The position numbers and the translations under genes are program-made. DNA of 18,188 nt from Anaerolineales bacterium (GTDB lineage: Bacteria > Chloroflexota > Anaerolineae > Promineifilales > Promineifilaceae), in the NCBI GenBank assembly GCA_020432595.1, contig JAGQGA010000033.1, forward strand, positions 1 through 18,188, read 5' to 3'. Below the pieces are notes generated by a model, which searched no databases, was not told where the DNA came from, and saw nothing but the letters and a program-made list of their open reading frames with translations. Every line of letters begins with the position of its first letter. Within the stretch, counting starts at the first letter, position 1. Below, piece by piece: positions 3 through 18,188 of this stretch.

Positions 3-725
3 ATCTATGACAACAACACGATGTTGTCTAGCGGAACTCAAATCTCACTTGGGGATGCCAACGGCCAGACACTTACCAACTTGGGCAACGGCATGGCACC
101 GTTTTGGCTAGACAACAGCACCTTTGGCTTTATTTACCTTGACCCCGTTTCGTCTGACAGCCGCCGCCGCAATATTGTGCTTGCCACCCTCGACGACCCA
201 ACCCTGCAAACACTTGTCGCTGCTGAAGCATTTACCAGCACCCTGCCCGACCGCCGCCCTGCCTCCCAAATTCACCTGCGCTATGTCCTACCCCACCCCA
301 CCAACCCCGACCTGCTCCTAGTCGTCGGCTTTGATGCCATAACCAGTGAAGGACACGTCTGGTCATATCGGCAGTCCACAGCGGACATTCAACCGCTCAC
401 TTCGCTCGGTGTTGATTTTGGCTATTCAATCAGCATGTCACCAAACGGCCGTTGGCTGCTGCTGCAAGGTGTCGAACGGCAAGGTCGTTCTGTCGGACAG
501 ACAATATCGTTGTATAATCTGGAAACAGGCGAAACGCGCCGCCACGTTATGGCCTTCCCACAGCTTGCCCCCGCCTTCACCTATGATTGGACATCTGATG
601 GGGAATGGTTGGCCTATGTGGTAAATGGGCAGATGATGGGATTAACGGCCGTTAACCACAACTACACCCAAATCATCCCCGCCCCCAGCCACGACTGCGC
701 CGCCATCGCCTGGGTCAACCAATAA
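3..725 (+). CDS. Beta-propeller (TolB/WD40-like) protein, C-terminal part
   Basis: The reading frame is open from the left edge (it begins IYDNNT before the first internal Met at 21), so the gene starts outside the window and only about the last 240 codons are seen. The protein has repeated propeller-blade signatures: SMSPNGRWLLL near residue 140 and DWTSDGEWLAYV near residue 195 (counted from the internal Met), each an 'SPDGxxLa' type strand followed by a strand carrying LYNLETGE-like sequence. This is the pattern of TolB-like or WD40-like beta-propellers, which usually act as extracytoplasmic or scaffold domains. No catalytic motif, membrane segment or signal peptide lies in the visible part. 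The stop TAA at 723-725 is followed at once by a hairpin repeat. One AACGGCCGTT palindrome encodes the NGR of the SPNGRW blade and another encodes TAV near the end. What precedes the propeller, and therefore the real function, cannot be told. Confidence 0.75.
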   Translation: MYDNNTMLSSGTQISLGDANGQTLTNLGNGMAPFWLDNSTFGFIYLDPVSSDSRRRNIVLATLDDPTLQTLVAAEAFTSTLPDRRPASQIHLRYVLPHPTNPDLLLVVGFDAITSEGHVWSYRQSTADIQPLTSLGVDFGYSISMSPNGRWLLLQGVERQGRSVGQTISLYNLETGETRRHVMAFPQLAPAFTYDWTSDGEWLAYVVNGQMMGLTAVNHNYTQIIPAPSHDCAAIAWVNQ

Positions 726-728
726 ATT

Positions 729-751
729 GTAGGGGCGTATTGCATACGCCC
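729..751 (+). repeat. Palindromic intergenic repeat, copy 1
   Basis: A 23-base unit: GTAG, then stem GGGCGTAT, loop TGC, stem ATACGCCC. The eight-base stem is perfect. It sits four bases after the stop codon of the propeller gene. Exact copies occur at 15176-15198 (same strand) and 15419-15441 (reverse strand). It could serve as a weak terminator for the propeller gene, but no T-run follows. Confidence 0.85.
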
Positions 752-769
752 TTGCTCACAACAACATCC

Positions 770-1573
770 ATGAGCAAACAACAAGTCCAACAACAATTCG
801 GTGCCAACGCCGCCGCCTACGCCACCAGCGAAGTCCATGCCAAGGGAGCCAGCCTCGCTCGGCTAGTCGAATTGGTGCAGCCCCAGGCAAATTGGCAGGT
901 GCTGGACATTGCCACGGCGGCCGGCCACACCGCCTTTGTCTTCGCCCCCCACGTTGCCCACGTCATCGCCAGCGACCTTACCCCCGAAATGCTCACCGTT
1001 GCCGCCAACCTGGCGCAAGAGCGCACCATCCACAATGTCAGCTTCCGCGAAGCCGATGCCGAAGCACTGCCCTTTGACAACGCCAGCTTTGACCTTGTCA
1101 CCTGCCGTATTGCTCCCCACCACTTCCCCAACATCCCCCAATTTTTGGCCGAAGCGGCGCGGGTGCTGCGCCCTGGCGGCACGCTGGCCGTGGTGGACAA
1201 CGTGGTGCCGGGCAGCAAGCTCCACGGCAAAAAAGGGCGGCTGTTGCGCGAGGCGGGCGACTACGTCAACGCCTTTGAAAAGCTGCGCGACCCCAGCCAC
1301 CACCGCTGCCTCAGCCTGGACGAATGGGAAGAGGGGTTCCGCAAAGCAGGGTTCACCCTACACCACAGCGAAACGGCGTTCAAAGCGATGACATTTGGCC
1401 CCTGGGCCGACCGGATGCAGGTGTCGCCAGAAAACAAAACCCGCCTCAAAGCGATGCTGGTGCAAGCACCAACGGCCGTTTCAGAGTTCTTGACACCCCA
1501 ATTTAGCGAAGATAGAATCACTTTTCGCTTAACCGAAGCAATTCTTGTAGGAAAATTAGGGGTTGGAGATTAG
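770..1573 (+). CDS. Class I SAM-dependent methyltransferase (UbiE/MenG-like)
   Basis: A 267-residue protein with a Rossmann-type SAM-binding fold. Motif I is VLDIATAAGHTA (residues 44-55), the acidic residue at the end of beta-2 is in ASDLTPEML (D69), DAEALPF (96-102) matches the adenine-contacting motif, and VLRPGGTLAVVD (132-143) is the usual post-motif. These are typical of the Methyltransf_11 family, which methylates small molecules such as quinones, sterols or cofactors; the substrate cannot be read from sequence. IAPHHF at 114-119 replaces the more common ALHHF. ATG at 770 is preferred: an in-frame TTG at 740 lies inside the preceding repeat and would add ten low-information residues. 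No clear Shine-Dalgarno is seen. The last codons (KLGVGD, stop) fall inside a repeated GGAGATT tract, so the C terminus may have been set by repeat insertion. Co-directional with miaB 57 bases downstream. Confidence 0.88.
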   Translation: MSKQQVQQQFGANAAAYATSEVHAKGASLARLVELVQPQANWQVLDIATAAGHTAFVFAPHVAHVIASDLTPEMLTVAANLAQERTIHNVSFREADAEALPFDNASFDLVTCRIAPHHFPNIPQFLAEAARVLRPGGTLAVVDNVVPGSKLHGKKGRLLREAGDYVNAFEKLRDPSHHRCLSLDEWEEGFRKAGFTLHHSETAFKAMTFGPWADRMQVSPENKTRLKAMLVQAPTAVSEFLTPQFSEDRITFRLTEAILVGKLGVGD

Positions 1574-1624
1574 AGATTGTCGCTTCGCTAGTGACAATCT
1601 CCAATCCCCAATCTCCAATCTCCA
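1559..1624. repeat. Hairpin made of GGAGATT/CCAATCTC repeat units
   Basis: A perfect nine-base inverted repeat, GAGATTGTC (1573-1581) and GACAATCTC (1593-1601), encloses an 11-base loop. It is flanked by GGGGTTGGAGATT on the left and by near-tandem units CCAATCCCC, AATCTCC, AATCTCC on the right. The element starts inside the last codons of the methyltransferase and ends six bases before the miaB ATG, so it fills the whole spacer. It may act as a transcription-attenuating hairpin or be a dispersed repeat. Confidence 0.7.
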
Positions 1625-1630
1625 TCATCT

Positions 1631-3022
1631 ATGAACAAAAAATACCACTTCTGGATTACCGGCTGCCAAATGAACTACGCCGATGCCCGCCGGGTCGCCA
1701 CCGAATTAGAAAAACTGGGGTATCAATTCACCCCCGAAGCCCAAGACGCAGACGTGATTGTGCTGGAAACCTGCACCGTGCGCCAGCAGTCCGAAGACAA
1801 AGCCTACGGAATGCTCCACACCCTGCGCCCACTGAAAAAAGAAAAACCCGACACCACCATCGCCGTCATGGGGTGCGTCGTCGGCGTGCGCGGCAACGAA
1901 ACACTGGAAAAACAATTCCCCTTTGTGGACGTATTTATGGAGCCTTCGACCAACGGCCTGCCGCTCATCTCCCACCTGACGCAGGACGACGTAGCGCAGC
2001 TTGAGCAAGAGGCGGCTACCACCCGCCACGCTTGGCAAGATGGCGAAATCATTTTGCCCGACCACGAACGGGGTCAGCTTGTTTCCGCCCCCGTCTCCAT
2101 CGTCTACGGCTGTTCCCACGCCTGTACCTTCTGCATCATCCCGCAAAAGCGGGGCAAGGAGCTATCGCGCCCCGTTGGCGAAATCGTGGCCGAGGTGCGT
2201 TCGCTGGTGGCGCAGGGAGTTAAGGAAGTGGTGTTGCTGGGGCAAATTGTGGATCGCTATGGCTACGATATCGGCGATGGTCCTGATTTGGCCGACCTGC
2301 TGCGGGTGGTCAACGATGTGGATGGATTGGAGCGGATTCGCTTCCTCACCAGCCACCCCAACTACATGACCGACCGCATTCTGCACGCCGTGGCCGCGCT
2401 GCCCAAGGTGATGCCCCAAATCGAAATTCCCATTCAGGCGGGCAACAACGAAGTGCTGGAAAACATGAAGCGGGGCTACACCAAGGAGCAATACCACGCC
2501 CTTATCCACCGCGTACGCGACATCATTCCCGATGCCGCCATCCACTGCGACATCATCGTCGGCTTCCCCGGCGAAACCGAGGCGCAGTTTCAAGAAACTT
2601 ATGACGTTTTGGCCGAACTCAAGCTAGATAAAATTCACCTAGCCCGCTACAGCCCGCGCCCCGGGACGGTTAGTGCCCGCCGCATGGCTGATGACGTGCC
2701 GGATGAAGAAAAGCGCCGCCGCTTTCACCTAATTGAGGCGTTGCAAAAGGACATTTCCGAAGAAAAGATGCGCCAATATATGGGGCAAACGGTAGAAGTG
2801 CTGGTGGAAGGAGAACAGCGCGGCCGCTGGCGCAGCCGCAACCCGCAAAACAAGCTGGTCTTTTTTGACGACCCACGTGACTTGAAGGGGCAAATTGTGC
2901 AGGTGAAAATTAATCACACGGGCGTATGGAGCATGTCGGGGACGGTGGTTGGTGATACAAATGGGAAAGAAATGGCAGAAACGGCCGTTTTTCACGACAC
3001 CATTCCCCTCACCGTCATCTAA
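1631..3022 (+). CDS. miaB: MiaB-type tRNA methylthiotransferase (radical SAM)
   Basis: A 463-residue protein with the three-part architecture of the methylthiotransferase family. The N-terminal UPF0004 domain has the three cysteines that hold the auxiliary 4Fe-4S cluster: C12 in TGCQMN, C48 in ETCTV and C82 in MGCVVG. The radical-SAM domain has C161-x3-C165-x2-C168 (YGCSHACTFCIIP). A C-terminal TRAM domain (about 385-452) includes NKLVFFDD and KINHTGVWSMSGTVVG. The family adds a methylthio group at C2 of i6A37 in tRNAs reading UNN codons, or acts on t6A (MtaB) or ribosomal S12 (RimO). GCQMN and the overall spacing favour MiaB. QIVDRYGYD replaces the usual QNVNxYG and PIQAGN replaces PVQSGS, so it is a divergent member. 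No Shine-Dalgarno precedes the ATG at 1631, which abuts a repeat. Its TAA overlaps the stop of the convergent PDZ gene. Confidence 0.88.
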   Translation: MNKKYHFWITGCQMNYADARRVATELEKLGYQFTPEAQDADVIVLETCTVRQQSEDKAYGMLHTLRPLKKEKPDTTIAVMGCVVGVRGNETLEKQFPFVDVFMEPSTNGLPLISHLTQDDVAQLEQEAATTRHAWQDGEIILPDHERGQLVSAPVSIVYGCSHACTFCIIPQKRGKELSRPVGEIVAEVRSLVAQGVKEVVLLGQIVDRYGYDIGDGPDLADLLRVVNDVDGLERIRFLTSHPNYMTDRILHAVAALPKVMPQIEIPIQAGNNEVLENMKRGYTKEQYHALIHRVRDIIPDAAIHCDIIVGFPGETEAQFQETYDVLAELKLDKIHLARYSPRPGTVSARRMADDVPDEEKRRRFHLIEALQKDISEEKMRQYMGQTVEVLVEGEQRGRWRSRNPQNKLVFFDDPRDLKGQIVQVKINHTGVWSMSGTVVGDTNGKEMAETAVFHDTIPLTVI

Positions 3023-3765
3023 TTCCCAGCCATCTCAATCCCAATAAAACCACGCGACGGGTCATCGGGGTGGGGGCCAAGCGTCACGGGAATGGTAAGC
3101 GTATCGGGGCCACGGCGCACGGTAAGCTGAACGGCCGTTCCCACTTCACGCCCCGCAATCACCGCCACCAACTCCTCATTGCTCAAAATGGCATGGCCGT
3201 CAACGGCCGTTACCACATCCCCCGCCTGCAGCCCTGCGGCTTCACCAGCACTGCCGGGCAGCACAATGGCAATTACCGGCGGGGCAGGACGCGGCGTAAA
3301 CGTCGGCAAAATATCAGGGGCAATCGTGGCATTCGGGTTAGGTCGCGGGCTGTTGATCGAACGCACCTCCACTCCCAAACGGCGGCTGCCCGGCTCTAAC
3401 GTTAGCGGCAGTTGCACCAGTGAATCTCCCTGGCGCAAGGTCAAAATTACCGTGCCGCTGCCGCTGTATGTTTCCATATAGCGCACCAAATCATCAGGCA
3501 CATCCAGAGGAAAAGCATCAACACCCACCAGCAGCGATTCGGGCTGTAGGTTGGCTCGGCCGGCCGGACTGTCTGGCTCAACGCTGGTTACAATAATCCC
3601 TTGGGCACGGCTAACCAGTTCGTTCACCGCTGGCGCCGTTGCTTCGCTTGTGCCGGTGACAACGCGGCGATAGAGATACATCGCTGCCCCCACGCTGCTG
3701 ATGCACAGTAGGGCTACAAATAAAATGCCGAGAATAATAACCAGATGACGTTGACGATCAGACAT
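3019..3765 (-). CDS. Membrane-anchored double-PDZ protein
   Basis: A 248-residue protein. After a short basic N terminus (MSDRQRH) there is one membrane segment (about 8-30, LVIILGILFVALLCISSVGA), then a PDZ-like domain (about 55-132, GIIVTSVEPDSPAGRANL), a Pro/Asn-rich linker (138-162) and a second PDZ domain (about 163-245, with GSAGEAAGLQAGDVVTAVDG). The topology implies both PDZ domains lie outside the membrane. PDZ domains of this kind bind protein C termini or position substrates for proteases; no protease domain is present, so it is probably an adaptor or sensor. ATG at 3765 was chosen because an upstream in-frame GTG at 3807 lies inside a hairpin repeat and adds a meaningless stretch. 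It is the last gene after moxR and the DUF58 gene on this strand. Its TAG (3021-3019) overlaps the TAA of miaB. Confidence 0.82.
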   Translation of the reverse strand: MSDRQRHLVIILGILFVALLCISSVGAAMYLYRRVVTGTSEATAPAVNELVSRAQGIIVTSVEPDSPAGRANLQPESLLVGVDAFPLDVPDDLVRYMETYSGSGTVILTLRQGDSLVQLPLTLEPGSRRLGVEVRSINSPRPNPNATIAPDILPTFTPRPAPPVIAIVLPGSAGEAAGLQAGDVVTAVDGHAILSNEELVAVIAGREVGTAVQLTVRRGPDTLTIPVTLGPHPDDPSRGFIGIEMAGN

Positions 3766-3775
3766 TGCACTATAT

Positions 3776-3832
3776 GCAAGTAACAAGTGGCAGGTAACAA
3801 GTCTCACTTGCCACTTGCCACTTGTTACTTGC
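3776..3832. repeat. 17-base perfect inverted repeat of ACTTGCC-type units
   Basis: GCAAGTAACAAGTGGCA (3776-3792) is the exact reverse complement of 3816-3832, giving a 17-bp stem. The 23-base interior carries further copies of the same heptad-like unit (GGTAACAAGT, CACTTGCC). It fills most of the 72-base spacer between the DUF58 gene and the PDZ gene start. It may reduce read-through to the PDZ gene or be a dispersed repeat; there is no long T-run. Confidence 0.85.
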
Positions 3833-3837: not shown

Positions 3838-5133
3838 TCAGGCGACTGTAAAATAACCAGCTTGGGTCTTACTTTGGCTCAAAACGGCCGTTATATCATC
3901 CCCATTCCGCACCAGATACACCGCCATGCCGCTGGCTTCCAGCAGCGTTGCCAACCCAATGCCAGAACGAGAACTGCCAAACGAGCCGGGGTCAACCAGC
4001 ACCGTCACCACACGCAGCCCACGCCGTGAAAGTTGACGAACGGCCGTTGCCCAATTATCCCGCGTTGTCGGTGTTACGACAATCAACGTCGTTCCGCGAG
4101 GAAATAAATGCGACTCGGCATGGAGCATATCGGTTAGTGGCACCTCACCCCGCGCCGAAAGCACCGACAGGGTTTCCAAAATGCGGTTAAGCTGCCGCTC
4201 ACCCCGGTCAGGCTGCACCACCTCGTTCGACTGCCCATACCCCAGCATCCCAACTGCCCGGTCACGCCGCAAAAAATACTGTGCCAGTGAGGCCGCAATT
4301 GAAACCGTGTACTCCTCCGTCGTCCCCGGCAGTGTAAACGAATCTCTTTGCATCCACGGCGGCAAATTTTCCTGCTGCCGCAACCGCTCCAGTACTTCCT
4401 TTGGAGCCACATGCTCATACACTGACATATCCGGCACAATCCAAATGTCAGCCAGCGGGTCTAGCTCGAACTCTTTCACAATCAGTCGGTCGCGGCGGGC
4501 ACTGCTGCGCCAATGAATACGGCTAAAGCTATCGCCTGGCGCGTAATCGCGCACGCCAGAGGCATTGGTGGTCACATAATGGGTGCGCCGCCGCAGCGCA
4601 TCGCCACCAGGCAGCAGCCCAATCGGCAAAGCAAACTGCTGAATATCAAAGGTAAGCGGGTAAATAATCACGTTAGTTGTAGCCGATAAATCCCGCTCCA
4701 TCGGAAACAATCCAAACGGGTCGCTGGTACTAATACGCAGCGGGCCAAGCTGGTACCGACCACGCTGACGGCAAATGGTCGTGATACGCCAGCTATAGCT
4801 TTTGCGCGGCCCCAGGTTGCTAACCACATGGCTGGAAAAATGACCGGGCAGCGTGGTATCGTCCTGCACGGCCAACCACAACTTGGGCACAATACTGGTA
4901 TTTCGCACCACAAACCGCTCATCCATCGGCCGGCCGACCTGGGTGCGCCGCTGCCGGGTAATGCGCGACAAATGCACCCAGTTGATGTTGGCCCATGCCC
5001 AGGCAAAGGAGATGATGAGCAGCAGCGCCAGCAGATAGGTGATCGTAAAGAGCAAATCGCGCCCAGTAATCAACCCACCCAGCAGGGCGGCGATCATCAT
5101 GAGAAAAACGGCCGTTCGGCGATGGCGCATCAT
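3838..5133 (-). CDS. DUF58 membrane protein (MoxR partner)
   Basis: A 431-residue protein. Two membrane segments occupy the N terminus (about 8-24 and 27-49), followed by a beta-rich region and the DUF58 signature GVRDYAPGD (193-201) with IHW (206-208) and the basic RSSARRD. The vWA-like part begins at IWIVPDMSVYE. The metal-site motif DxSxS is seen as D235-M-S237-V-Y239, so its last serine is missing. The family is known from moxR/DUF58/vWA operons, in which the MoxR ATPase and vWA-type partner are thought to work as a chaperone pair for metal insertion, envelope stress or assembly. The start ATG overlaps the moxR stop in TAATG (5135-5131), which points to translational coupling, and no separate Shine-Dalgarno is needed. 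Three AACGGCCGTT palindromes lie in the gene, each encoding TAV. Confidence 0.87.
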   Translation of the reverse strand: MMRHRRTAVFLMMIAALLGGLITGRDLLFTITYLLALLLIISFAWAWANINWVHLSRITRQRRTQVGRPMDERFVVRNTSIVPKLWLAVQDDTTLPGHFSSHVVSNLGPRKSYSWRITTICRQRGRYQLGPLRISTSDPFGLFPMERDLSATTNVIIYPLTFDIQQFALPIGLLPGGDALRRRTHYVTTNASGVRDYAPGDSFSRIHWRSSARRDRLIVKEFELDPLADIWIVPDMSVYEHVAPKEVLERLRQQENLPPWMQRDSFTLPGTTEEYTVSIAASLAQYFLRRDRAVGMLGYGQSNEVVQPDRGERQLNRILETLSVLSARGEVPLTDMLHAESHLFPRGTTLIVVTPTTRDNWATAVRQLSRRGLRVVTVLVDPGSFGSSRSGIGLATLLEASGMAVYLVRNGDDITAVLSQSKTQAGYFTVA

Positions 5134-6086: not shown

Positions 6087-6095
6087 ACGATGTTT

Positions 6096-6100
6096 CTCCT
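6096..6100 (-). promoter_or_regulatory. Shine-Dalgarno of moxR
   Basis: AGGAG on the minus strand, within AGAGGAGAAA, nine bases before the ATG at 6086. It decides this start over the longer in-frame start at 6155. Confidence 0.75.
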
Positions 6101-6181: not shown

Positions 6182-6392
6182 GTGGTAGTTTTTTGGTGAC
6201 ATTTCAGGGTCAGAAATCTGAGATTTATCCGATTCTCATGATGGGAAAACGGCCGTTTGCTAAGAAACCCAGTTGCCTGAAGCTAAGTGTATGACCGCAA
6301 CCCTGGTGTTGGAGGAGGTAAGAGAGAGGTGGCTATACGACAAAACCTTGTGGCCTTAATCAATAGCCAAACGCTGCGAAAGTGCCAATATC
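6182..6392. other. Spacer between moxR promoter and tRNA terminator
   Basis: About 210 bases without a convincing gene on either strand. It holds one AACGGCCGTT palindrome (6248-6257) and a purine-rich stretch GGAGGAGGTAAGAGAGAGG (6309-6327) that has no start codon at a useful distance. Nothing else recognised. Confidence 0.6.
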
Positions 6393-6593: not shown

Positions 6594-6684
6594 CGGGGAG
6601 GATGGGATTCGAACCCATGAACGACTTTTAACGGCCGTTAACCGCTTAGCAGGCGGCCCCAATCGACCACTCTGGCACCTCCCC
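6594..6684 (-). tRNA. tRNA-Ser (anticodon GCT)
   Basis: A 91-base class II tRNA on the minus strand. Acceptor GGGGAGG pairs with CCTCCCC; anticodon stem GCCGC/GCGGT encloses loop CTGCTAA, giving anticodon GCT (codons AGC/AGU); T arm ATGGG-TTCGAAT-CCCAT; discriminator G. CCA is not encoded. The 22-base variable region (6640-6619) folds as AACGGC paired with GTCGTT (one G-U) around an eight-base loop. The complete AACGGCCGTT palindrome (6630-6639), within TTAACGGCCGTTAA (6628-6641), forms the 5' side of that stem and part of its loop, so the repeated genomic palindrome sits inside a structural RNA. Confidence 0.95.
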
Positions 6685-6919: not shown

Positions 6920-7008
6920 AGTGGTTTGGGCAAAATTGGGGTGAAAAACGGCCGTTATTGCCACCCCACTTTTTGCCCAATTGCGTGGTGTAGAGGGAGA
7001 AGTGTGGT

Positions 7009-7030
7009 GGGGAAAACGGCCGTTTTCCCC
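7009..7030. terminator. 22-base perfect palindrome after the patatin gene
   Basis: The AACGGCCGTT core (7015-7024) is extended on both sides to arms GGGGAAAACGG and CCGTTTTCCCC, a perfect 22-base palindrome, with outer GTGTG/CACAC bases adding to the stem. It lies 19 bases after the stop codon of the large patatin gene. The centre has no loop, so in RNA the inner pairs must open. A terminator role is inferred from position only; there is no T-run. Confidence 0.45.
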
Positions 7031-7048: not shown

Positions 7049-10000
7049 TCACTTCTTTTCCTTTTCCGGAACCGTTGTGGCTTCACGCAAATCACCTAGA
7101 AAGCCACTTAAATATTTATCAAATTTGTTCTTTTCCCCTAAATTCTTAACGGCTTCTTGTTTCTCTTTTAGCTTGTCATAGGCTCCTTCCAATTCTTTAT
7201 CATCAGTATTTAACTCCGATAGCTCTTTCTCTAACAAGTCTATAAGTTCTTTGGCCGAACTTGCTTTACTAAAGAGTTCGGCTAGTAGTTGTTCCGCTTT
7301 TACATTACCCATTTGCAGCAATCGCAGCATATCCAACACTTGTCGGCGTCTTGCCTTGTTTGCTTCCAGTTTTTTCTTCTTTTCCTCGATCTTGCGTTCA
7401 TAATAATTAACAAGATCCTGCCGTGTGCGCTCAATAGATAGCCAACCAATTTCACGATACGCCTCAAACTGCCGCTCGTTAAAGAAAAGGTCGGTGGTAG
7501 AAACGTGCGGGAACCCTTTTTCATACTGCTTACGATACTCTTTTAGGGATGATGGCTCCTTGCCCGTCATATTTGGCTTAAAATAAAGAAGATAACCTTT
7601 CATGGCAGGGTTGTATTCATCTCTTGGATATTGAATCACCCCCACCGCACAATGAAAAGCACTTTCACCGTTCTCATCAGGGCGAATGCCATCCACGTTG
7701 ATGTCTACATCAATGTTGAAGTCCGCTTTCACCTGCAACAAAACGTGGAACAGGTCGGTAAACTTATAACCATGATCGCGTGAGGCATCACCCACAATAA
7801 TAATTTGGCAGCGACGTTGGAAAAGGGGATACAGTGCGCCATTATCCCCTGTATGTCCCCCATCAGATAAATTGACCAAACCCTCCCTTTCACTGATCTG
7901 CCCGCGCATTTCATTCCACAAATATGGAATCCAATTGCTTCTCTTCTCAAAGCGTTCTGCCAATTGGCGATAGGTTTCTAAATTCAGGCCTTCATATTTC
8001 TTGGGGTTGGTCATCCACAAGCCCAGGCGGAAATTTAGTATCGTAGTGATAAAGGCTTGGGCAAAAAAGGTAACATAACCAACTGACGAAGAAGCGGCTG
8101 CCCCAGAAACAGCAATGGCTCGCGACAGTTTTGTGCGCCCATCACGATAATAGCGTGTTTTAACATAGCCCGTTACTTCTGAACCACAATAATACTTTGA
8201 GAAAAGGAAATGCTGTGATTTACGATCTTTAAAACGCAAATCTGCACTGTTTGTCAAATTAATGGCACCATTAATCAGATGGTATGGAGACGAAGAGCCA
8301 TCAGGGTTAATTTGCGCCAAACGCAAGCGTCCATCGTACCGCGCATCTTGTATTGGATCAGTTCCCAAATGAGTTGCTAAATAAGCATTCATCATTCGAT
8401 CACGATAAAAATAGTGGTGGGAAACATAATTAAAGTTAATAACCCGCCCTAAAATATAAAACCAGGCCAAAGCTAAAAATGCGAGATAGAAAAGACGAGC
8501 TGCTTGGCCCCCCTCAAGCTGAACAACATAAACAATGAAAGGCGGTAAGTATCGAACAAAAAGATAAACGAGAAAGCCACTTAATAGTGAAACTCCCGCA
8601 ATAAACGGCCCAACTTTTCTTGGTTCTACACAGTCCTGATCAGTGGATATTTTTGTCCGAACCAAACGGCAGACTAAAAATGTTACTACTATGCCTAGGA
8701 TTATCGCAACTGCACATAACGGTTTAGCGAGGAGGAAATCTCTGCCCAAAAGATTAAACAAGCAGTCAAAGGCGTAACCTAGAGCAAAGGCTACAATTCC
8801 AATGATCGAAATAGCACCAAGAGCAGTACGAATTGGTTTAGAATTTTGCCATTTTCTAACCAGTCCTACTTTTCCTACCCAGAGGACGTATATAACACTG
8901 CTAGTTGTAAGTAAAAGAATAATTAATCCCCAAAGAGGATCAAATAAAAAGCTGCTTGCGATTTGAGTTAAGTTGTCATCCAGCCTTGATTGAAAGAGGA
9001 AAATCAAGGAAAGATTAAACAAAATCACTAGAATGGACAGGACAATCACTTGAACGCGAAATGAAAAGCTCAAAAGTCTTTGTAGCAAGGTCGTCAGCTT
9101 GCTGTCGTCGCTTGCCTGGCTGCTTTTTTGTTCCTGCTTGGCCGTATAGTTCAAAAGCAAGTTCCCTAGCAATGTCAGCAAACCGGCCGTGGTGGGAAAG
9201 GTAAAACCAAACTCATCAAGCAATCTTGGACTCTGATCATCATAGAATTGGGGCAGAATCAAGATAGTTAGGGCAAGAATAATCAGCACGGCATACAGAT
9301 TAAGCCCTTGCAAGGAGGAAACTAATGCTCTGAAGCTCGCTTTGGACCAAACGTCTTTAGAAGACCGCCCGTAACGCAACGGGACAAGCCTAAAGATAAT
9401 TAGCCCAGCAGTGGCTCCAAGCGTTAAAAACAACGGCATCCAAATAGCGTAAATGTTGTCTCCCTCTTTTGGCAAGATCCATACTTTATAAGCTACGATG
9501 GCTAATGCCATGGCGATAAGCGAGACAATTAAGGACACCATCCGAATTTGTCGAATCTGAGTATACTCGGCTGTTAAATCCACATACTCGTTCTTGCTCT
9601 CTTCTGAGCTTAAGCTATTGCGGTGTTTAATCCACCAGATAAAGTACGAAAGAGAGAGAAGTTTATATTGTGGCTTTTCTTCCCCCGTAAATTCTGGGAT
9701 ATACAAGGCTTTATAAAAACGCAAGAGAACGATGTATGAGCCTACAATAGCCAAAATCACCCCAATGATGAAGAGATGTATAGGCGAAAATTCAAGCTGG
9801 TCTTTAAGAAAACGCTTTAGTTGCTGTAGAAACTGCCACCACTGCAAATCTGATCCATTTCCTGTCTCCTCTGGCTCAATCATCATGCTGCTACGGACAA
9901 GCTCAAAATAGCTTGCGCCTGTTTTTGCTTTTTGGGCAAAATACGTTATCCCTGAACGCTCAAGCAGAGGCAGGCCTAATGCTTCTCCATCAACGGTTGT

Positions 10001-11536
10001 CGTCTCTACGCCTCGCGCAGTGATCGTTAGCTCGCCTTGTTCATACAATGTCACATCAATGGGGGCTGTGGTTGGTTCTGAGGCTGCTGTCTCTTGAGTG
10101 GTCTGCTTATCTGCCGAGGGTTCTGCTACTGTTGGGGCAGCCGGAGTTGATTGAACAGAAACAAACGTTTTATCTTCCAAAATCGAGGGTGCTAATAAGG
10201 CTGTAATGCCATAGTGCAAAGTGGAAAGGGAGAAAATGGCAAGGAGAAACAGAATGAGTGTGTAAAGAAAGCTTGGCAGCGTGTTACCGATGAGACCAAT
10301 GGTGTCGGCTGTAGCGGTGCCAAGACGGGGAATGATAAAGTTGCCATAATTCCGCATATGCCGTAGCTGAATATTAGCCCCAATCTCTGTAGATGGAACA
10401 ATTTTCTCCCTTTTTTCCTCATCCTCCCAGTCAAAAACTTTTATATCTGGGTTGAAAGGAAAATTTTTCCAGTGTGGGCCAAATTCGCTTCGCTTGGAAG
10501 TTAACGAGGTGAGAGTAGCAGCCGCGTAGCCACCGCCTGAAATGCTGGAAAGATAATCCACCCACGGCAAAATACCCAACTTAGATAACCCCTGCGCCAG
10601 CCCCAAATTAAACGTGGCTGAACGAATCCCCCCACCTGAAAAAGCCAAACCGATTGGTGGTCGGTCTGTTATCTTTTCTTCTTTTCCATCACCATTTGAA
10701 GAAGCTCCCTGTTGGCTTACAGTTGCATTGCCTTTAACCCAGGCCAAATCTGCTGAAAGCATTTTCGATTGACAAGTCTGATTGAGTTTGTTGAGATTGT
10801 TTATCAATAAATCCGTAATACCGAGAAAGTTTTGTCTGGCACTTTGAGAAAGCTTGCTGTACCCTTGCTCATGTTTTCCTTCAATCTTAACCTTTTTTAA
10901 ATCCTTATTAATTTGTATCCATTTGTCAAACTTTTCCTTTGCATTTTGATCCTGCTTACTACATTCCAACAAATTACACAGAGCGTTAAGCAAATCACTG
11001 TTTTCCGTTAAAATCCTATTATCGCTCTCTTTAAGGGAAGTTTCTGGTTGTCTTAATGGAAGATATAACCAGTTAATACTTTCCTTCAAGCGTTGCATAT
11101 CCTCATCGTCATCTTGTGTATCCACCCACTCTTGAAAATTCGTTTCTTGCTGACCTTGTTGTTGGTGCCTAGGGGTATATTTCTCTTTTAATTTTGTAAT
11201 AAGAGTTTGAACTTCTGCATCTTCCCTGTCTGGATCATTTGTCAAGAGAGAGAGAGTAACAAGTGTTTCCCTCGCCATATTCCACTCCTCTAACTTGGTT
11301 TTAAACGTGACGCCTGGTGTCTGGCCATTCTCCTCATCTGGCAATTGGCATTGAAGAAACGTTTCCAACTCATTGCGCTGAATGTACAAGGAATCAATAA
11401 GGGCTACTTTTCGCCTTAGCACAATGAATTCATTTTCTTCGGCTTGAATGCTTTTTTTCTCACTTTGAGCTTTTTCACCATTAAAAGACTTTCTATAAAA
11501 GTCATCAGGAACGGATAAGCAAGAAGAAGTAAACAT
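7049..11536 (-). CDS. Giant membrane patatin-like phospholipase (split catalytic domain)
   Basis: A 1495-residue protein. Residues 1-285 are charged and helical with no recognised domain. The patatin fold begins at IGLAFSGGGIRSATFNLG (295-312), whose GGGIR is the oxyanion-hole motif, and the nucleophile is S333 in YLSSISGGGY, where the usual first Gly of GxSxG is Ser. A block of about twelve membrane segments follows (roughly 420-445, 586-606, 665-688, 697-718, 746-763, 780-797, 828-850, 865-887, 905-928, 938-957, 975-997, 1010-1032), with a Thr/Ala/Pro-rich linker at 462-495. The catalytic Asp comes only afterwards, D1225 in NLSDGGHTGDNG, so the Ser-Asp dyad is split by the membrane block. 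The C terminus (1375-1470) is a Lys/Glu-rich coiled coil. Patatins cleave acyl chains from lipids. AAGGA at 11545-11549 supports the start. GC is much lower than in neighbours and no AACGGCCGTT occurs. A role in lipid turnover or abortive defence is possible, not shown. Confidence 0.85.
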   Translation of the reverse strand: MFTSSCLSVPDDFYRKSFNGEKAQSEKKSIQAEENEFIVLRRKVALIDSLYIQRNELETFLQCQLPDEENGQTPGVTFKTKLEEWNMARETLVTLSLLTNDPDREDAEVQTLITKLKEKYTPRHQQQGQQETNFQEWVDTQDDDEDMQRLKESINWLYLPLRQPETSLKESDNRILTENSDLLNALCNLLECSKQDQNAKEKFDKWIQINKDLKKVKIEGKHEQGYSKLSQSARQNFLGITDLLINNLNKLNQTCQSKMLSADLAWVKGNATVSQQGASSNGDGKEEKITDRPPIGLAFSGGGIRSATFNLGLAQGLSKLGILPWVDYLSSISGGGYAAATLTSLTSKRSEFGPHWKNFPFNPDIKVFDWEDEEKREKIVPSTEIGANIQLRHMRNYGNFIIPRLGTATADTIGLIGNTLPSFLYTLILFLLAIFSLSTLHYGITALLAPSILEDKTFVSVQSTPAAPTVAEPSADKQTTQETAASEPTTAPIDVTLYEQGELTITARGVETTTVDGEALGLPLLERSGITYFAQKAKTGASYFELVRSSMMIEPEETGNGSDLQWWQFLQQLKRFLKDQLEFSPIHLFIIGVILAIVGSYIVLLRFYKALYIPEFTGEEKPQYKLLSLSYFIWWIKHRNSLSSEESKNEYVDLTAEYTQIRQIRMVSLIVSLIAMALAIVAYKVWILPKEGDNIYAIWMPLFLTLGATAGLIIFRLVPLRYGRSSKDVWSKASFRALVSSLQGLNLYAVLIILALTILILPQFYDDQSPRLLDEFGFTFPTTAGLLTLLGNLLLNYTAKQEQKSSQASDDSKLTTLLQRLLSFSFRVQVIVLSILVILFNLSLIFLFQSRLDDNLTQIASSFLFDPLWGLIILLLTTSSVIYVLWVGKVGLVRKWQNSKPIRTALGAISIIGIVAFALGYAFDCLFNLLGRDFLLAKPLCAVAIILGIVVTFLVCRLVRTKISTDQDCVEPRKVGPFIAGVSLLSGFLVYLFVRYLPPFIVYVVQLEGGQAARLFYLAFLALAWFYILGRVINFNYVSHHYFYRDRMMNAYLATHLGTDPIQDARYDGRLRLAQINPDGSSSPYHLINGAINLTNSADLRFKDRKSQHFLFSKYYCGSEVTGYVKTRYYRDGRTKLSRAIAVSGAAASSSVGYVTFFAQAFITTILNFRLGLWMTNPKKYEGLNLETYRQLAERFEKRSNWIPYLWNEMRGQISEREGLVNLSDGGHTGDNGALYPLFQRRCQIIIVGDASRDHGYKFTDLFHVLLQVKADFNIDVDINVDGIRPDENGESAFHCAVGVIQYPRDEYNPAMKGYLLYFKPNMTGKEPSSLKEYRKQYEKGFPHVSTTDLFFNERQFEAYREIGWLSIERTRQDLVNYYERKIEEKKKKLEANKARRRQVLDMLRLLQMGNVKAEQLLAELFSKASSAKELIDLLEKELSELNTDDKELEGAYDKLKEKQEAVKNLGEKNKFDKYLSGFLGDLREATTVPEKEKK

Positions 11537-11549: not shown

Positions 11550-11948
11550 ATTGGTATGAAGTTGAATTAATAAAATTTAGAAGACACTGCCTGAGAAACA
11601 GTGGCAACAAGAGGCTTTGAGCAAGCTTATTTACAATTTAAGGAAAAACAGCTAACAGGGCTTGATGACTGGATGAAGGATGATGCAACAGCTTGGCAAA
11701 TTTGACAGACCCTGATGCCAATTTAATCCTTTGGACTTATATTTTTCTCTAACACGCTGGAAACGGAATCGTTACGACTTTTGCTCAACTAAAATGAAAA
11801 CGGGTAACAACAACTACTTGAAGCATTTGTAGCGTCCATGATGCGCCTGCAAACGCTTCACCTATAACGTCCGTTCCGGCAAGCGCATGAATGTGGTTAA
11901 CGGCCGTTTTTAGCCCCACCCCACCCAAAACCCTGCTAAAATAGCCAA
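11550..11948. other. Gene-free AT-rich spacer with possible gene remnants
   Basis: About 400 bases with no convincing gene. On the plus strand a 34-codon frame opens at GTG 11601 and stops at 11705 (containing LTGLDDWMKDDATAWQI), and an overlapping frame then reads LTDPDANLILWTYIFL before a stop; the protein-like composition of both suggests a decayed gene, but neither is recognised. An 11-base imperfect inverted repeat (TGAAGCATTTG 11819-11829 with 11850-11860, one mismatch) forms a hairpin. AACGGCCGTT recurs at 11899-11908. TAAAAT at 11937-11942 lies seven bases before the next ATG and could be the -10 of a leaderless transcript, though no -35 is seen. Confidence 0.5.
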
Positions 11949-12441: not shown

Positions 12442-14580
12442 CTACACAAATGGCTGGCCTGCTGCCGCCATGTCCAGCAGCATCTGCGGCGGCGCAAAGC
12501 GGGGGCCATAGGTTGCCGCCAGTTCCTGCGCCCGCGCCACAAACTTGTCCACCCCATAGGCATTGATAAATTGCAGCGTGCCGCCGTAAAACGGGGCAAA
12601 CCCCCAGCCAAAAATGCTGCCCAGATTGGCATCGGCCACCGAGCGCAGCACCCCTTCCTGCAAACAGCGCACCGTTTCAATGGATTGAATAAACAAAATC
12701 CGATCCATCATCTCCTGCTGGCTCAACTGAGGCTGGCCGTCCATAAAAATTTCCGCCAACTGCGGCCACAGCCGCTTCTCCACCCCGCCGTACTCATAAA
12801 ATCCGGCTCCGGCAGCGCGGCCAGGGCGACCCAGCTCCAGCATTTTGTCCAGCACGGCAAAGGCCGGATGGTCAACCGCCAGCTTGCCCACCTCATTCGT
12901 TCCCGCCAAATCCTTGATCGTTTGGTCGCGAACGTGGGCCGCCAGACTCAACGACACCTCATCCATCAGCGCCAGCGGGCCAACCGGCATCCCGGCCTGC
13001 ATTCCGGCCATTTCAATGGCCTGCGGGTGCTGCCCCTCGGCCAGCATCGCCATCCCCTCGTTGGTCCAGGTGCCAAACACGCGGGAGGTGTAGAAGCCCC
13101 GGCTATCGTTGACCACAATCGGCACTTTGCGAATGGCCTGCACATAGTCAAACGCCTTAGCCAGCGTTTCGTCGTCGGTTTGCTCACCGACGATGATTTC
13201 CACCAACTGCATTTTGTGGACGGGGGAGAAGAAGTGGAGGCCGATGAACTTTTCTGGGCGCACGCTGGCTTTGGCTAAACCGGTAATGGGCAAGGTGGAG
13301 GTGTTGGAGGCAAACACGCCGGCCGGATCCATCACCGCCTCAGCCATTTTCGTCACTTTGGCTTTGAGGTCGCGGTTTTCAAAGACGGCTTCGATGATAA
13401 GGTCACAGTCGCGCAGGTCGTCATAAACGGCCGTTTCCCGCACCCTCCCCAAAATTTCCGCCATCTGTTCCGGCGACATCCGCCCCTGCCGCACCCGCCG
13501 CTCCAGTATCGCCGCAATTTTTGCCTTGCCCGCCGCTGCCTGCTCCGGCGTGGCATCAGTCATTACCACCTCCATCCCCGCATACGCCGACACGTAGGCA
13601 ATCCCGTGCCCCATCATCCCGGCACCCAGCACCCCCACCTTTTTCGTTGTTTGTGGTGGAATGGCTGACGGCCGGCTGCCCCCCTTTTTAATCTGATTTA
13701 GCTGCGTCCAAAAGGCGGCAATCATATTCTTGCTCACCTGCCCCGTTGCCAGCTTGGTGAAATAGCGCGACTCAATGCGGCACGCCGTTTCAAAATCCAC
13801 CTGCGCCCCCTCCACCAAGGCCGACATGATGGCGTGGGGAGCCGGGTAGTTACCCCGCGTCTCTTTCCTCACTATCGCCGGAGCAATCGCCAGCAGTTGG
13901 GCAATGTGGGGCTGGCTGGGGCTTCCACCGGGGATTTTGTACCGTTTGTCGGCATCCCACGGTGCTTTGGCGTTGGGGTTAGCCCCAATCCACGCCCGCG
14001 CCTGCGCCATCATGTCGTCCATATCGCTGGCAACGGCGTGGATCATCCCCGCCTGCAGCGCTTGTTGGGGCGAATACTTTTTATTTTGGCTCAGCCATTC
14101 TAGGGCGTTTTGCAGCCCAATCAAACGGCCGGTTCGCACCACGCCCCCAGCACCGGGCAGCAACCCCAGCCCCACTTCGGGGAAACCCAGTTGAATCCGG
14201 TCACTATCCAGAGCGATGCGGTAATGGCAGGCCAGTGCCAGCTCAAAGCCGCCGCCCAACGCCGTCCCATTGATGGCCGCCACCACCGGCTTGCCCAGTG
14301 TTTCCAACCGCCGAAACAGTGCCTTGATCGCCTGTGAGCCGTCGAAATGCACTTGCGGATCGTCGGAGCCAAACATGGTGTCAATGTCGGCTCCGGCCAT
14401 AAACAGCTTTTTCCCAGAAGTGAGAATGGCCCCTGTGACGCTGCTGTCGCTTGCCAGCTTTCGCAATGTCTCTTCCAATGCGGCAAAAAAAATCTCGTTC
14501 AGCACGTTGGCCGAACGGCCGTTCATATCCATCGTCAGGGTCACAATCCCCTGCTCATCTTGTTCGTAAATGATAGCCAT
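12442..14580 (-). CDS. fadB: Enoyl-CoA hydratase / 3-hydroxyacyl-CoA dehydrogenase fusion
   Basis: A 712-residue bifunctional beta-oxidation enzyme of FadB/FadJ length. The N-terminal crotonase domain (about 1-190) has the oxyanion-hole GADID (63-67) and GTALGGGFE (105-113), with catalytic E113 and E135 (FPEVGLGLLPGAGG). The dehydrogenase part starts with the NAD-binding GVLGAGMMGHG (316-326), then SNTSTLPIT (425-433) and GLHFFSPVHKMQLVEI with catalytic H449 and E461, and ends with two helical C-terminal domains. It hydrates trans-2-enoyl-CoA and oxidises the L-3-hydroxyacyl-CoA with NAD. The partner thiolase lies upstream on the same strand, separated by a DinB-fold gene and repeats. ATG at 14580 has only a weak GAAAG before it. 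FadB and FadJ cannot be told apart here. Confidence 0.93.
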   Translation of the reverse strand: MAIIYEQDEQGIVTLTMDMNGRSANVLNEIFFAALEETLRKLASDSSVTGAILTSGKKLFMAGADIDTMFGSDDPQVHFDGSQAIKALFRRLETLGKPVVAAINGTALGGGFELALACHYRIALDSDRIQLGFPEVGLGLLPGAGGVVRTGRLIGLQNALEWLSQNKKYSPQQALQAGMIHAVASDMDDMMAQARAWIGANPNAKAPWDADKRYKIPGGSPSQPHIAQLLAIAPAIVRKETRGNYPAPHAIMSALVEGAQVDFETACRIESRYFTKLATGQVSKNMIAAFWTQLNQIKKGGSRPSAIPPQTTKKVGVLGAGMMGHGIAYVSAYAGMEVVMTDATPEQAAAGKAKIAAILERRVRQGRMSPEQMAEILGRVRETAVYDDLRDCDLIIEAVFENRDLKAKVTKMAEAVMDPAGVFASNTSTLPITGLAKASVRPEKFIGLHFFSPVHKMQLVEIIVGEQTDDETLAKAFDYVQAIRKVPIVVNDSRGFYTSRVFGTWTNEGMAMLAEGQHPQAIEMAGMQAGMPVGPLALMDEVSLSLAAHVRDQTIKDLAGTNEVGKLAVDHPAFAVLDKMLELGRPGRAAGAGFYEYGGVEKRLWPQLAEIFMDGQPQLSQQEMMDRILFIQSIETVRCLQEGVLRSVADANLGSIFGWGFAPFYGGTLQFINAYGVDKFVARAQELAATYGPRFAPPQMLLDMAAAGQPFV

Positions 14581-15441: not shown

Positions 15442-15443
15442 TG

Positions 15444-16655
15444 TTAAATACGCTCAACAATGGTGGCGATGCCCATGCCGCCGCCCACGCAAAGGGTGAC
15501 AAGGCCGGTTTCGCAGTCGGTGCGCTCCATTTCATCTAGCAAAGTGCCGAGGAGCATAGCCCCGGTGGCACCGAGGGGGTGGCCCAGGGCGATGGCACCG
15601 CCGTTGACGTTGACATTTTCGGGAGAGTCTATGCCCATGTCGCGCATAAAGCGCATGACGACGCTGGCAAAGGCTTCGTTGACTTCCATCAGGTCAATGT
15701 CGTCAATGGTCATACCGGCCAGCTTGAGGGCTTTGCGCGTGGCGGGGGCGGGGCCGGTGAGCATGATGGTGGGGTCAGTGCCGACGAGAGCGGCGGCGCG
15801 AATGCGGGCGCGGGGTTTGAGGCCGAGTGCCTGACCGGTTTCCTGGTTGCCAATTAGCACCAACGCGGCTCCGTCTACGATGCCGGAGGAGTTGCCGGCC
15901 GTATGGACATGGTTGATTTTTTCGACGTGGGGATAACGCTGCTGCGCCACATAGTCGAACCCCATTTGGCCGGGCATTTCAAAGGCAGGGCGCAGGCTGC
16001 CTAGCCCTTCAAGGGTGGTGTCGGGGCGCAGGTAGCTGTCTTGTTGCAGGATGGTGAGGCCGTTCATGTCTTTGACGGGGATGACAGAGCGAGAAAAACG
16101 GCCGTTTTCCCGCGCATACGCCGCCCGCTGCTGCGAACGAAGAGCAAACCGATCCACATCATCCCGGCTAAACCCTTCCAGCGTGGCGATCAGATCCGCC
16201 CCAATCCCTTGCGGCACAAAGTAGGTTTCGTAGTTGGTTTGCGGATCCAGCGCCATCGGCCCACCATCTGACCCCAACGGCACCCGCGACATAGACTCCA
16301 CGCCACCAGCCACCACCAGATTCTCCCAGCCAGAGCGCACTTTCATCGCCGCCACGTTAACCGATTCCAGACCAGAGGCGCAGAAGCGGTTAAGCTGCAC
16401 GCCAGGCACGTCAATATCCCAGCCCGCTTTTTGCGCGGCAATTTTGGCGATGTCTGACCCCTGATCGCCAACGGGCGCGACGCAGCCCAACACCACGTCG
16501 TCTACTTGAGAGGTGTCGAGATCGGTGCGTTTGACTAACTCGTCCATCAGGGTCACGACCAAATCAATGGGTTTGACTTCATTTAACTCACTGCCCGCCT
16601 TGCCTCTGGCACGGGGGGTGCGGATCGCTTCGTAGACATAGGCTTCTTGTGTCAT
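15444..16655 (-). CDS. fadA: Acetyl-CoA acyltransferase (thiolase, FadA-like)
   Basis: A 403-residue thiolase of standard length. The nucleophilic cysteine is C92 in [15 protein letters not shown] is at 326-329, the catalytic His is H359 in [15 protein letters not shown], and the second cysteine C389 is in TLCVGGGMG. It performs CoA-dependent cleavage of 3-ketoacyl-CoA to acetyl-CoA and shortened acyl-CoA (or the reverse condensation). ATG at 16655 was chosen because AAGGA (16667-16663) precedes it by seven bases; an in-frame start at 16718 would add 21 untypical residues. With the fused hydratase/dehydrogenase downstream it completes beta-oxidation. Chain-length preference is not visible. 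One AACGGCCGTT encodes the NGR in ARENGRF. Confidence 0.93.
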
Positions 16656-16662
16656 GGGTTCA

Positions 16663-16667
16663 TCCTT
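16663..16667 (-). promoter_or_regulatory. Shine-Dalgarno of the thiolase gene
   Basis: AAGGA within GAAAAGGATG on the minus strand, seven bases before ATG 16655. It decides the start against the longer in-frame start at 16718. Confidence 0.7.
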
Positions 16668-16828
16668 TTCATGGCTTTGTATCAATTTGTCAAGGTTAGC
16701 ACAACTAAGCAAAAACATCTACCCATCGTTTTGTGCTGCAACCTTTTATGGCAACCTGCGTACAGGGACTAGAAAACGGAACAACACGCGGGTTGGTATC
16801 AACCTGCCTTTATATGAATCCTGGACAA

Positions 16829-16833
16829 AAGGA
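16829..16833 (+). promoter_or_regulatory. Shine-Dalgarno of the dynamin-like GTPase gene
   Basis: AAGGA within CAAAAGGAAAC, eight bases before ATG 16842. The divergent spacer 16656-16841 should hold promoters for both genes, but no strong -35/-10 pair was found. Confidence 0.7.
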
Positions 16834-16841
16834 AACTGAGC

Positions 16842-18188
16842 ATGACGCTTAAAGCAGATAAATATCAAGAACTTAAATCTTCTCTGGAAACACTCCCCCA
16901 CATTAGCCCGGCGCAGGTGGAAATGTGGGTTGACATGCAGCGCACCATTGATAACACCCGCGATTACCTGATTCGCGCCGTGCCGGACGCTCAATTCAAC
17001 ATTGACGAAGCACAAAAGATTCTCGGCCAGCGTACCTATACGCTGGTTTTCTTTGGCGGCACGGGTGTGGGCAAAAGCACGCTGATCAATGCGCTGTTGG
17101 GGCGCAATTTGCTGCCGACGGGGGCGGTAACGGCCGTTACTGGCACCATCGTCTACATTGAACAAGCTGACGAAGGCGAGGCCGAATCCCTCGTCCTCAC
17201 CTACTGGAGCCGCGACGAATTTGCCGAACGAGTCCGCCGCCTGTGCCAACTGGCACAAATTGACGGCTTCGACATCACCAACGACGGCGAACGCGAGCAG
17301 GCGGAAGACGACATCCACGCCGCCATTAAAGCCAGCGAAGGGATGGCAAAAACCGAGCGTGACGAATATCTGGAAATTTTGCTCGACTGCATCCACTCCT
17401 TTGAGAACAACAAAGAGCTTTACAAAGCGGGCACCCCGCCGCCGCAAAGCTTGGTGCTTGACAATGAAGAGTCGCTCAAGCATTTGCGTGAAGATGGCTT
17501 TAAGGGCAGCAATCAGCGGCAAATCCGGCTGATCAAGTCGGCCACTTTCCGCATCAAGCCCCGCACCGGGCAGCCTGACCTGCTCATGGGCGGCTATCTT
17601 CGTATCGTGGATGTGCCGGGTTTGGGCGCGGGGATGAAGCTGCATGAAACGATTACGCTGGAGGAAATGAAGCGCGAGGATGCGATGATCGTGCTGGTTT
17701 CCGACGCCGGCCGTCAACGTGTAGATGAGATGAAGGCATTAACGGCCGTTAACTGGATCAAAGAAAACCGGCTCTACGGCCTCACCGGCAGCGACCTCGA
17801 CGAAGCCGCCGCCAAAATCTTTGTCGTCGTCAACGGCGGCAATGTCCGCCAGGCGTTTGACCGACTCAACAGCGGCTTGCCCCAGGCCGAGCGCGAAGTC
17901 AAGGAAGTCACCCGCTACATCGCCCCCAACTATTGGGAACGGTACCGGGATCGCGGCGACAACCGCCCCTACTTCCTCGTCATGACCCCGTCCGCCCTCT
18001 ATGTTCAAGACCCGGAAAACGCGCCCGACGAATTCGCCAGCGAAACCGAGCGCATCATCAAGGCGTTTGCCGACCAGCTTGGGCAAATTGAGGCCAGCGA
18101 CCCGCTGCACCCCGACACCAAAGCTGCCCTCCTCGCCCTCAGCGAAGTGCCGCTGCTGCGCGAACGGCTGACTGAATTTATCAAAACC
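16842..18188 (+). CDS. Dynamin-like large GTPase, N-terminal part
   Basis: The frame is open for 449 codons to the right edge, so the C terminus is missing. A helical lead (1-65) with QRTIDNTRDYLIRAV precedes a GTPase domain: G1 P-loop FGGTGVGKSTLINALLG (71-87), a G2-like region LPTGAVTAVTGTIVYIE (about 92-108), and G3 VDVPG (256-260). Between G2 and G3 is a long charged insertion (about 110-230), as in dynamin-family GTPases and not in small GTPases. The G4 position reads VVVNGGN (328-334) instead of N/TKxD, so base recognition is atypical. Bacterial dynamins remodel or protect membranes, often in division, stress or phage defence. Start fixed by AAGGA at 16829. Divergent from the thiolase; no partner dynamin is visible. 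Two AACGGCCGTT palindromes occur, one in the G2 region. Loss of nucleotide specificity, or a non-dynamin P-loop family, remain alternatives. Confidence 0.8.
   Translation, partial: MTLKADKYQELKSSLETLPHISPAQVEMWVDMQRTIDNTRDYLIRAVPDAQFNIDEAQKILGQRTYTLVFFGGTGVGKSTLINALLGRNLLPTGAVTAVTGTIVYIEQADEGEAESLVLTYWSRDEFAERVRRLCQLAQIDGFDITNDGEREQAEDDIHAAIKASEGMAKTERDEYLEILLDCIHSFENNKELYKAGTPPPQSLVLDNEESLKHLREDGFKGSNQRQIRLIKSATFRIKPRTGQPDLLMGGYLRIVDVPGLGAGMKLHETITLEEMKREDAMIVLVSDAGRQRVDEMKALTAVNWIKENRLYGLTGSDLDEAAAKIFVVVNGGNVRQAFDRLNSGLPQAEREVKEVTRYIAPNYWERYRDRGDNRPYFLVMTPSALYVQDPENAPDEFASETERIIKAFADQLGQIEASDPLHPDTKAALLALSEVPLLRERLTEFIKT

Follow-up and report, generated by a model that had tools for sequence, protein, structure and literature searches.

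Background

The element examined here is the palindrome AACGGCCGTT, of which 19 exact copies lie in an 18,188-nt stretch of Anaerolineales DNA (contig JAGQGA010000033.1, hereafter the window); the closest described systems are the highly iterated palindromes (HIPs) of cyanobacteria, among them HIP1, GCGATCGC. HIP1 sites were reportedly found to be conserved in a 2018 study, which is said to have argued for selection, and to our knowledge the role of HIP1 is still not settled. Two other kinds of signal enter the comparison: Chi sites, strand-biased recombination signals that are short, overrepresented, lineage-specific and non-palindromic, and DNA uptake sequences (DUS), which are not palindromes.

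In PMC4390886, HIPs are described as GC-rich palindromes occurring at about 0.5-2.5 per kb, with deviations mainly at the outermost bases; HIP1 is sporadically replaced by alternate palindromes in relatives and, in Calothrix PCC 7103, a methylase site is frequent in one sequence context and depleted in the others. The same paper gives Elhai's view that HIPs are possibly an epiphenomenon of repair, methylation or methylation-directed repair having also been proposed. Further comparison literature is found in PMC6560206 and PMC8093824. Among the papers listed, by title and abstract, in a survey of mostly non-subscription literature (for two of its queries, 15 of 193 and 12 of 93 matches), no report of a HIP-like motif in Chloroflexota was found.

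The present motif resembles HIPs in its density range, in being present in coding and noncoding DNA, in not being explained by codon use, in its outermost-base deviations and in the existence of alternate palindromes in relatives. It differs from HIP1 in its core, which is CGGCCG and not GATC/CGATCG, in its occurrence in Chloroflexota instead of cyanobacteria, and in the persistence of a single core through at least five flank forms within one family. It would be a second HIP-type system, outside cyanobacteria, with several flank dialects built on one core among relatives.

Overrepresentation in the window and in related genomes

In 200 dinucleotide shuffles of the window, AACGGCCGTT occurred 0.02 times on average and at most once; the coordinates of the 19 copies and the expectation of about 0.02 reported in the earlier note on this DNA were both reproduced. 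Only two 10-mers one base away from the motif were found in the window. Fourteen copies are located within open reading frames (ORFs) of at least 150 aa, by which coding status was defined, and five outside them, one of these in a tRNA, as had been described, here identified as tRNA-Ser(GCT); densities are 2.07 per kb in noncoding and 0.89 per kb in coding DNA. When synonymous codons were shuffled within the genes of the window, 0.295 copies were obtained on average (maximum 2 in 200 runs) against the 14 real ones and, therefore, codon preference does not explain the motif, as the note had argued. The coding copies are read as Thr-Ala-Val (TAV) in eleven cases, as NGR in three and never as Arg-Pro (RP). 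The phase restriction claimed earlier is thus present in the window, but the lack of the third phase is due to the small sample, since the loci of CH7 (an isolate, genome G003; 170 kb) contain 150 TAV, 34 NGR and 19 RP copies.

Whole-genome counts, a check proposed in the same note, refer to relatives of the window and not to its own genome; they proved far above a reversed control. With the synonymous shuffling, the two tests on which the note had staked its reading thus both came out in its favour. GTDB species genomes were scanned with a pair pattern (two copies of AACGGCCGTT 58-62 bases apart), which detected at least 120 stretches; 114 of the 120 listed matches came from Anaerolineae or other Chloroflexota. 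Counting 23 of the source genomes whole gave 1,443-5,060 copies in 16 of them, 564 in one and 5-186 in six, against 6-42 for the reversed control in the same genomes. The six low-count genomes include the four labelled neither Chloroflexota nor Anaerolineae. A Saprospiraceae genome (L044 / G017) contains 186 copies against 6 for the control; they are possibly local repeats, since some lie about 60 bases apart.

In an even sample of the class (249 genomes), nine genomes exceed 24 copies, all nine belonging to one Anaerolineae family of uncultured bacteria. Within this family (52 genomes), 18 genomes contain at least 1,443 copies, 11 contain 361-877, five contain 79-149 and 18 contain at most 51. 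The 18 strongest reach 1,443-5,060 copies each against 1-42 for the reversed control, at 0.35-0.83 per kb; the 8-mer ACGGCCGT occurs about twice per kb in G270. Across 301 genomes of the phylum, ACGGCCGT exceeds 471 copies in two only, both members of the family. In the class and phylum samples outside the family the motif is near background.

Flank dialects on a common core

Low 10-mer counts often conceal a different form of the CGGCCG core. The dialects, read from 2-20 kb samples of family genomes, showed that the core is family-wide, with flanks giving AACGGCCGTT, ACGGCCGT, TCGGCCGA or GCGGCCGC, or else free; the proposal that CGGCCG is the core is thereby supported, the core being constant where the flanks vary. 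Nine genomes (G267, G253, G268-G271, G278, G279 and G023) show ACGGCCGT, mostly lacking the outer A/T, at 29-47 copies per 16-25 kb; in G273 it is weaker. TCGGCCGA reaches 28 copies per 20 kb in G272 and 34 in G117, and GCGGCCGC 23 per 20 kb in G201. Mostly free flanks around CGGCCG are seen in G223, G289 (where the flanks lean to A), G290, G291 and G172, with 54-90 copies per 16-20 kb, and in G292, with 48 copies in 9.9 kb. The share of ACGGCCGT copies flanked by AA..TT is graded (window 19/19, CH7 227/270, DOLZORAL124 38/45, SJ142 43/104, CH6 25/63); for several high-count genomes, ACGGCCGT with an outer preference is therefore the better description.

CGGCCG and its reversal GCCGGC were counted over the whole sequence of 56 genomes of the order, with results that match the samples. 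The two hexamers number 21,019 and 132 in G172, 13,814 and 51 in G201, 21,032 and 864 in G001, and 25,568 and 7,284 in G223; in eleven further family genomes the ratio is 1.1-2.6, with no clear dialect. Four genomes, including G276, lean the opposite way.

Three side observations concern related palindromes. G276 (4.0 Mb) has 447 CGGCCG against 7,315 GCCGGC, and 14 copies of TGCCGGCA in 15.9 kb, an alternate palindrome built around GCCGGC, the reversed core. GCCGGC is nearly absent from the 8.0 Mb of G201 (51 copies) and the 4.1 Mb of G172 (132), far below the GC-based expectation. In five Anaerolineae loci outside the family (L295, L297, L299, L304, L305), CGCGCG and GCGCGC are several-fold above the composition expectation, perhaps as another lineage-specific palindrome.

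Dialect does not follow kinship. FadB of the window is most similar to that of G223 (76% identity, free flanks) and that of G272 (75%, TCGGCCGA), followed by that of G201 (65%, GCGGCCGC). In a FastTree phylogeny of 17 FadB proteins, from the window and 16 genomes other than G201, the window, G223 and G272 group with support 1.0; since these three differ in their flanks, either the dialect has switched among close relatives or whatever determines it is mobile. At one column of the fadB alignment the core is present in 12 of the 17 sequences, and is flanked by AA..TT in four of the five 10-mer genomes (AA..TC in G016) and in none of the seven 8-mer genomes.

Maintenance at the DNA level

Coding copies exceed those obtained by synonymous shuffling in each dialect: 203 against 5.2 for the 10-mer in CH7, 207 against 26 in the ACGGCCGT samples, 53 against 4 for TCGGCCGA, 20 against 3 for GCGGCCGC and 209 against 46 for free flanks. 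In three 10-mer locus sets, noncoding and coding densities are similar (0.94-1.57 and 0.87-1.40 per kb). A preference for particular codons or for the Thr-Ala-Val peptide, or a dispersed mobile repeat, can practically be set aside as the origin of the motif. The TAV phase does hold most coding 10-mer copies, but synonymous shuffling does not reproduce the counts, all three phases are used, copies occur in noncoding DNA and the peptides carrying the other dialects are different; a mobile repeat is contradicted by the bases beside the motif, which show composition bias only in the pooled loci.

The earlier suggestion of a HIP1-like motif maintained at the DNA level and filtered by protein tolerance is supported by these data. 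In 400 kb of G270, ACGGCCGT occurs 790 times against 9 expected, and its flanks behave as a dyad, one-sided variants numbering 189. One-base neighbours of the core are near or below the composition expectation, with the top excess, C>T at position 2, amounting to 29 against 14.5; since near-misses are at about background, there is no halo of decayed copies. In the pooled loci, one-base deviations number 404 at the outermost base against 70, 11, 27 and 10 at the others, a count which leaves out L006, L024, L027, L044, L045, L047 and L080 and takes in two non-Chloroflexota loci, L097 and L099; the sequences of L200, L287 and L288 are read as N. Sites are spaced roughly at random (coefficients of variation of 0.94-1.53 across five sets), and counts per 20 kb of G270 are overdispersed (variance/mean 2.16).

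Sites are also conserved at orthologous positions, as is reportedly the case for HIPs. Conservation was evaluated on shared loci, because alignment of the 400 kb of G270 to loci of eight relatives yielded only two short pieces. Among five close relatives compared pairwise, the 8-mer is intact in 234 of 256 aligned instances (91%), against 1,690 of 3,115 (54%) for 8-mers of the same composition. Intact 8-mers, same-composition 8-mers and full 10-mers number, respectively, 22/22, 154/279 and 6/6 for G022-G007; 24/26, 114/416 and 6/9 for G013-G016; 18/22, 116/400 and 6/7 for G001-G016; and 14/19, 74/362 and 2/5 for G013-G001.

It is unlikely that the sites are functionless by-products of biased repair, in which a context-dependent mismatch or short-patch process would turn near-misses into the motif. 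Such a process would agree with the motif occurring both inside and outside coding DNA and on contigs that carry virion genes (see below), and ACNGCCGT near-misses are indeed scarcer in G270 (12/7/9) than in G117 (31/26/20), by a factor of 2-4. Other neighbours of ACGGCCGT, however, are undepleted in G270, and no consistent depletion is seen for TCGGCCGA near-misses in their own host, G117; exact dyads of 8-10 bases with switching flanks would demand an unusually specific repair step, and the 91% conservation is equally compatible with selection.

Sites and genes of the window

The copies of AACGGCCGTT in the window, and one motif-free gene, are as follows.

444..453, coding, NGR phase
644..653, coding, TAV phase
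1471..1480, TAV, within a small-molecule-methyltransferase-like ORF (740-1573)
2980..2989, TAV, close to the end of a miaB-like ORF (1631-3022)
3130..3139, TAV, within ORF 3019-3807 (-)
3202..3211, TAV, within ORF 3019-3807 (-)
3883..3892, TAV, within the DUF58 ORF 3838-5133 (-)
4039..4048, TAV, within the DUF58 ORF 3838-5133 (-)
5107..5116, TAV, within the DUF58 ORF 3838-5133 (-)
6248..6257, spacer between an AAA_3 (MoxR-type) ORF (5133-6155) and tRNA-Arg
6630..6639, variable-arm part of tRNA-Ser(GCT), 6592-6684 (-)
6947..6956, in a spacer hairpin; 60-base fold of -26.5 kcal/mol
7015..7024, centre of a perfect 24-base palindrome; 60-base fold of -34.2 kcal/mol
11899..11908, spacer
13426..13435, TAV, within a fadB/fadJ-like ORF, 12442-14580 (-)
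14514..14523, NGR, within the same fadB/fadJ-like ORF, 12442-14580 (-)
16097..16106, NGR, within an acetyl-CoA acetyltransferase ORF, 15444-16718 (-)
17129..17138, coding, TAV
17741..17750, coding, TAV
7049..11536 (-), motif-free ORF of 1495 aa; GC 0.425 against 0.556 in the rest of the window

ORF 3019-3807 (-) weakly matches Do-type proteases in their end part, presumably the PDZ region. The core CGGCCG lies inside three tRNA calls, two of which appear false; at the tRNA-Ser(GCT) site, the full 10-mer is found elsewhere only in G253 among 30 aligned family loci. The palindrome at 7015..7024 lies directly 3' of ORF 7049-11536 (-), and the spacer hairpins at 7015-7024 and 6947-6956 possibly double as terminators. 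ORF 7049-11536 (-) has no Pfam or NCBIfam match, and its product is, presumably, patatin-like with membrane segments. The gene was probably acquired; 0.13 motif-free gaps of its length are expected in the window.

Mobile DNA and low-GC regions

Viral contigs scanned for close 10-mer pairs provided 25 stretches, 12 of them with at least four copies and the rest with two or three. Four pieces (L201, L208, L218, L225) include genes for terminase, portal, head or tape-measure proteins and contain 22-44 copies of ACGGCCGT in 12.9-14.8 kb; these pieces were picked by the motif, their hosts are inferred and they may be proviruses. Six further stretches came from viral contigs with three TCGGCCGA close together, and the three that were counted (GC 0.62-0.68) are not clearly of the TCGGCCGA dialect. 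A search for relatives of a phage head protein, as a motif-independent sample, returned the query alone. Since contigs with virion genes carry the motif, the role in segregation mentioned in the earlier note is not favoured.

Sites are scarcer in the lowest-GC decile of 4-kb bins than in the comparison bins (3.5 against 8.4 in G270, 3.9 against 6.5 in G117, 4.8 against 6.2 in G013). This, like the absence of sites from the low-GC ORF 7049-11536, is only suggestive, because a motif rich in GC should become rarer as GC declines.

These data bear on two further explanations. The motif might be a Chi-like or self-marking signal, a nuclease or defence complex sparing motif-dense DNA, so that chromosomes and adapted phages accumulate sites. 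The motif is, like Chi, short, overrepresented and lineage-specific, it occurs about once per kb with a host-like density in virion-gene contigs, and one low-GC gene lacks it; but known Chi sites are non-palindromic and strand-biased, a palindrome has no strand, and the viral contigs were selected by the motif. This origin appears quite improbable.

More doubtful still is a DNA uptake sequence with dialects. The DUS of Neisseriaceae (PMC3630211) share with the present motif a common core, lineage-specific variants and thousands of copies, and the ComEC-type family PF03772 is found in 47 of the 52 family genomes. However, PF03772 is also found in 10 of 14 control genomes, and the present motif is strictly palindromic. 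DUS dialects fit phylogeny according to the same paper, PMC3630211, whereas the window, G223 and G272 are FadB neighbours with different dialects; and DUS distribution is described as atypical on mobile elements in PMC7371117, whereas the phage-gene contigs, although motif-chosen and with inferred hosts, are rich here.

Proposed mechanism and candidate readers

The pattern is probably, in our judgement, that of a HIP-type system in which a DNA-reading protein with two-fold symmetry acts on sites held at the DNA level. The putative reader would be a homodimer or a methyltransferase-like enzyme recognising CGGCCG together with lineage-specific flanks. Long-resident DNA, of chromosome and phages alike, would gain sites up to about one per 0.5-3 kb, or one per 0.2-0.35 kb in free-flank genomes, and each site would then be protected from mutation within the tolerance of the encoded protein; a change in the flank specificity of the reader would shift the dialect of a genome around a constant core. 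We infer the reader, the mode of site gain and, if the sites have one at all, the function.

DNA methyltransferases were searched in the 52 family genomes as three families, C5 (PF00145), N6/N4 (PF01555) and D12 (PF02086). Several results, from this search and from the site counts, weigh against the proposed system. No reader is shared among the 37 enriched genomes within the three families, none of which is universal (D12 in 29, N6/N4 in 27, C5 in 21); G223, although enriched, lacks all three, and in G292 the matches are limited to C5 fragments and one weak N6/N4 hit. All four D12 proteins that were tested belong to the Dam family of adenine methylases, and the C5 enzymes extracted (25 of 29 loci tried; 60 matches in all, 30 fetched) are diverse; from a C5 group in G090, G172, G290 and G291, the one tested was nearest to PDB 3lx6/3me5, not to HaeIII. 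Noncoding density is below coding density in the ACGGCCGT samples (1.19 against 2.08 per kb) and also where flanks are free (1.43 against 4.36 per kb); a process acting only at the DNA level would not by itself predict this. Finally, the conservation counts are pairwise, with pairs that are not independent, and cannot separate selection from faithful repair.

The tie to methylation suggested in the earlier note is therefore unproven, each of the three families being absent from several strongly enriched genomes; that no universal matching methyltransferase was found among them may set the motif apart from HIPs. D12 is the sole family, at the thresholds used, in five enriched genomes; Dam-family D12 enzymes could not methylate GCGGCCGC, which contains no adenine. 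D12 subtypes, presumably Dam-like or DpnM-like, do not track dialect among 23 aligned proteins (30 loci tried). Flank-specified dialects are weakly associated with D12 (p 0.02) and N6/N4 (p 0.02), and less with C5 (p 0.09), kinship and bin completeness being uncorrected.

Among the C5 proteins extracted, a methyltransferase of the GGCC-specific type that the note had advised looking for was seen in one genome only. G172, which has the highest CGGCCG density, encodes a full-length M.HaeIII relative (E 3.5e-125 against 1dct) adjoining a HaeIII-type nuclease, PF09556 (pair at L123:453-2478); GGCC, the site of HaeIII restriction-modification (PDB 1dct), is the centre of the motif. The methylase has no partner of at least 40% identity among the 25 extracted C5 proteins. 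GGCC lies within CGGCCG in 159 of 194 cases in the G172 samples, against 63 of 480 in the non-enriched G274, G275 and G277; either GGCC methylation feeds the palindrome, or a later restriction system purges GGCC outside the protected palindrome. This pattern resembles Elhai's case of Calothrix PCC 7103, as given in PMC4390886.

As to what the sites of the proposed HIP-type system would do, the most likely candidate, at somewhat less than an even chance, is that the core is methylated or that methylation directs repair there, along the lines suggested by Elhai for HIPs; otherwise, the sites might serve the recognition of self DNA. A cell-wide self-mark, with a conserved CGGCCG reader whose flank specificity would switch between close relatives and thereby shift thousands of sites on chromosome and phages, working without a conserved DNA methyltransferase, can be put forward only tentatively.

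Significance

The motif is a taxonomic fingerprint, which could help to assign contigs and phages to the family. Its dialects among relatives constitute a natural experiment on why some bacteria keep such palindromes, and comparative genomics could look for the gene whose changes accompany those of the dialect.

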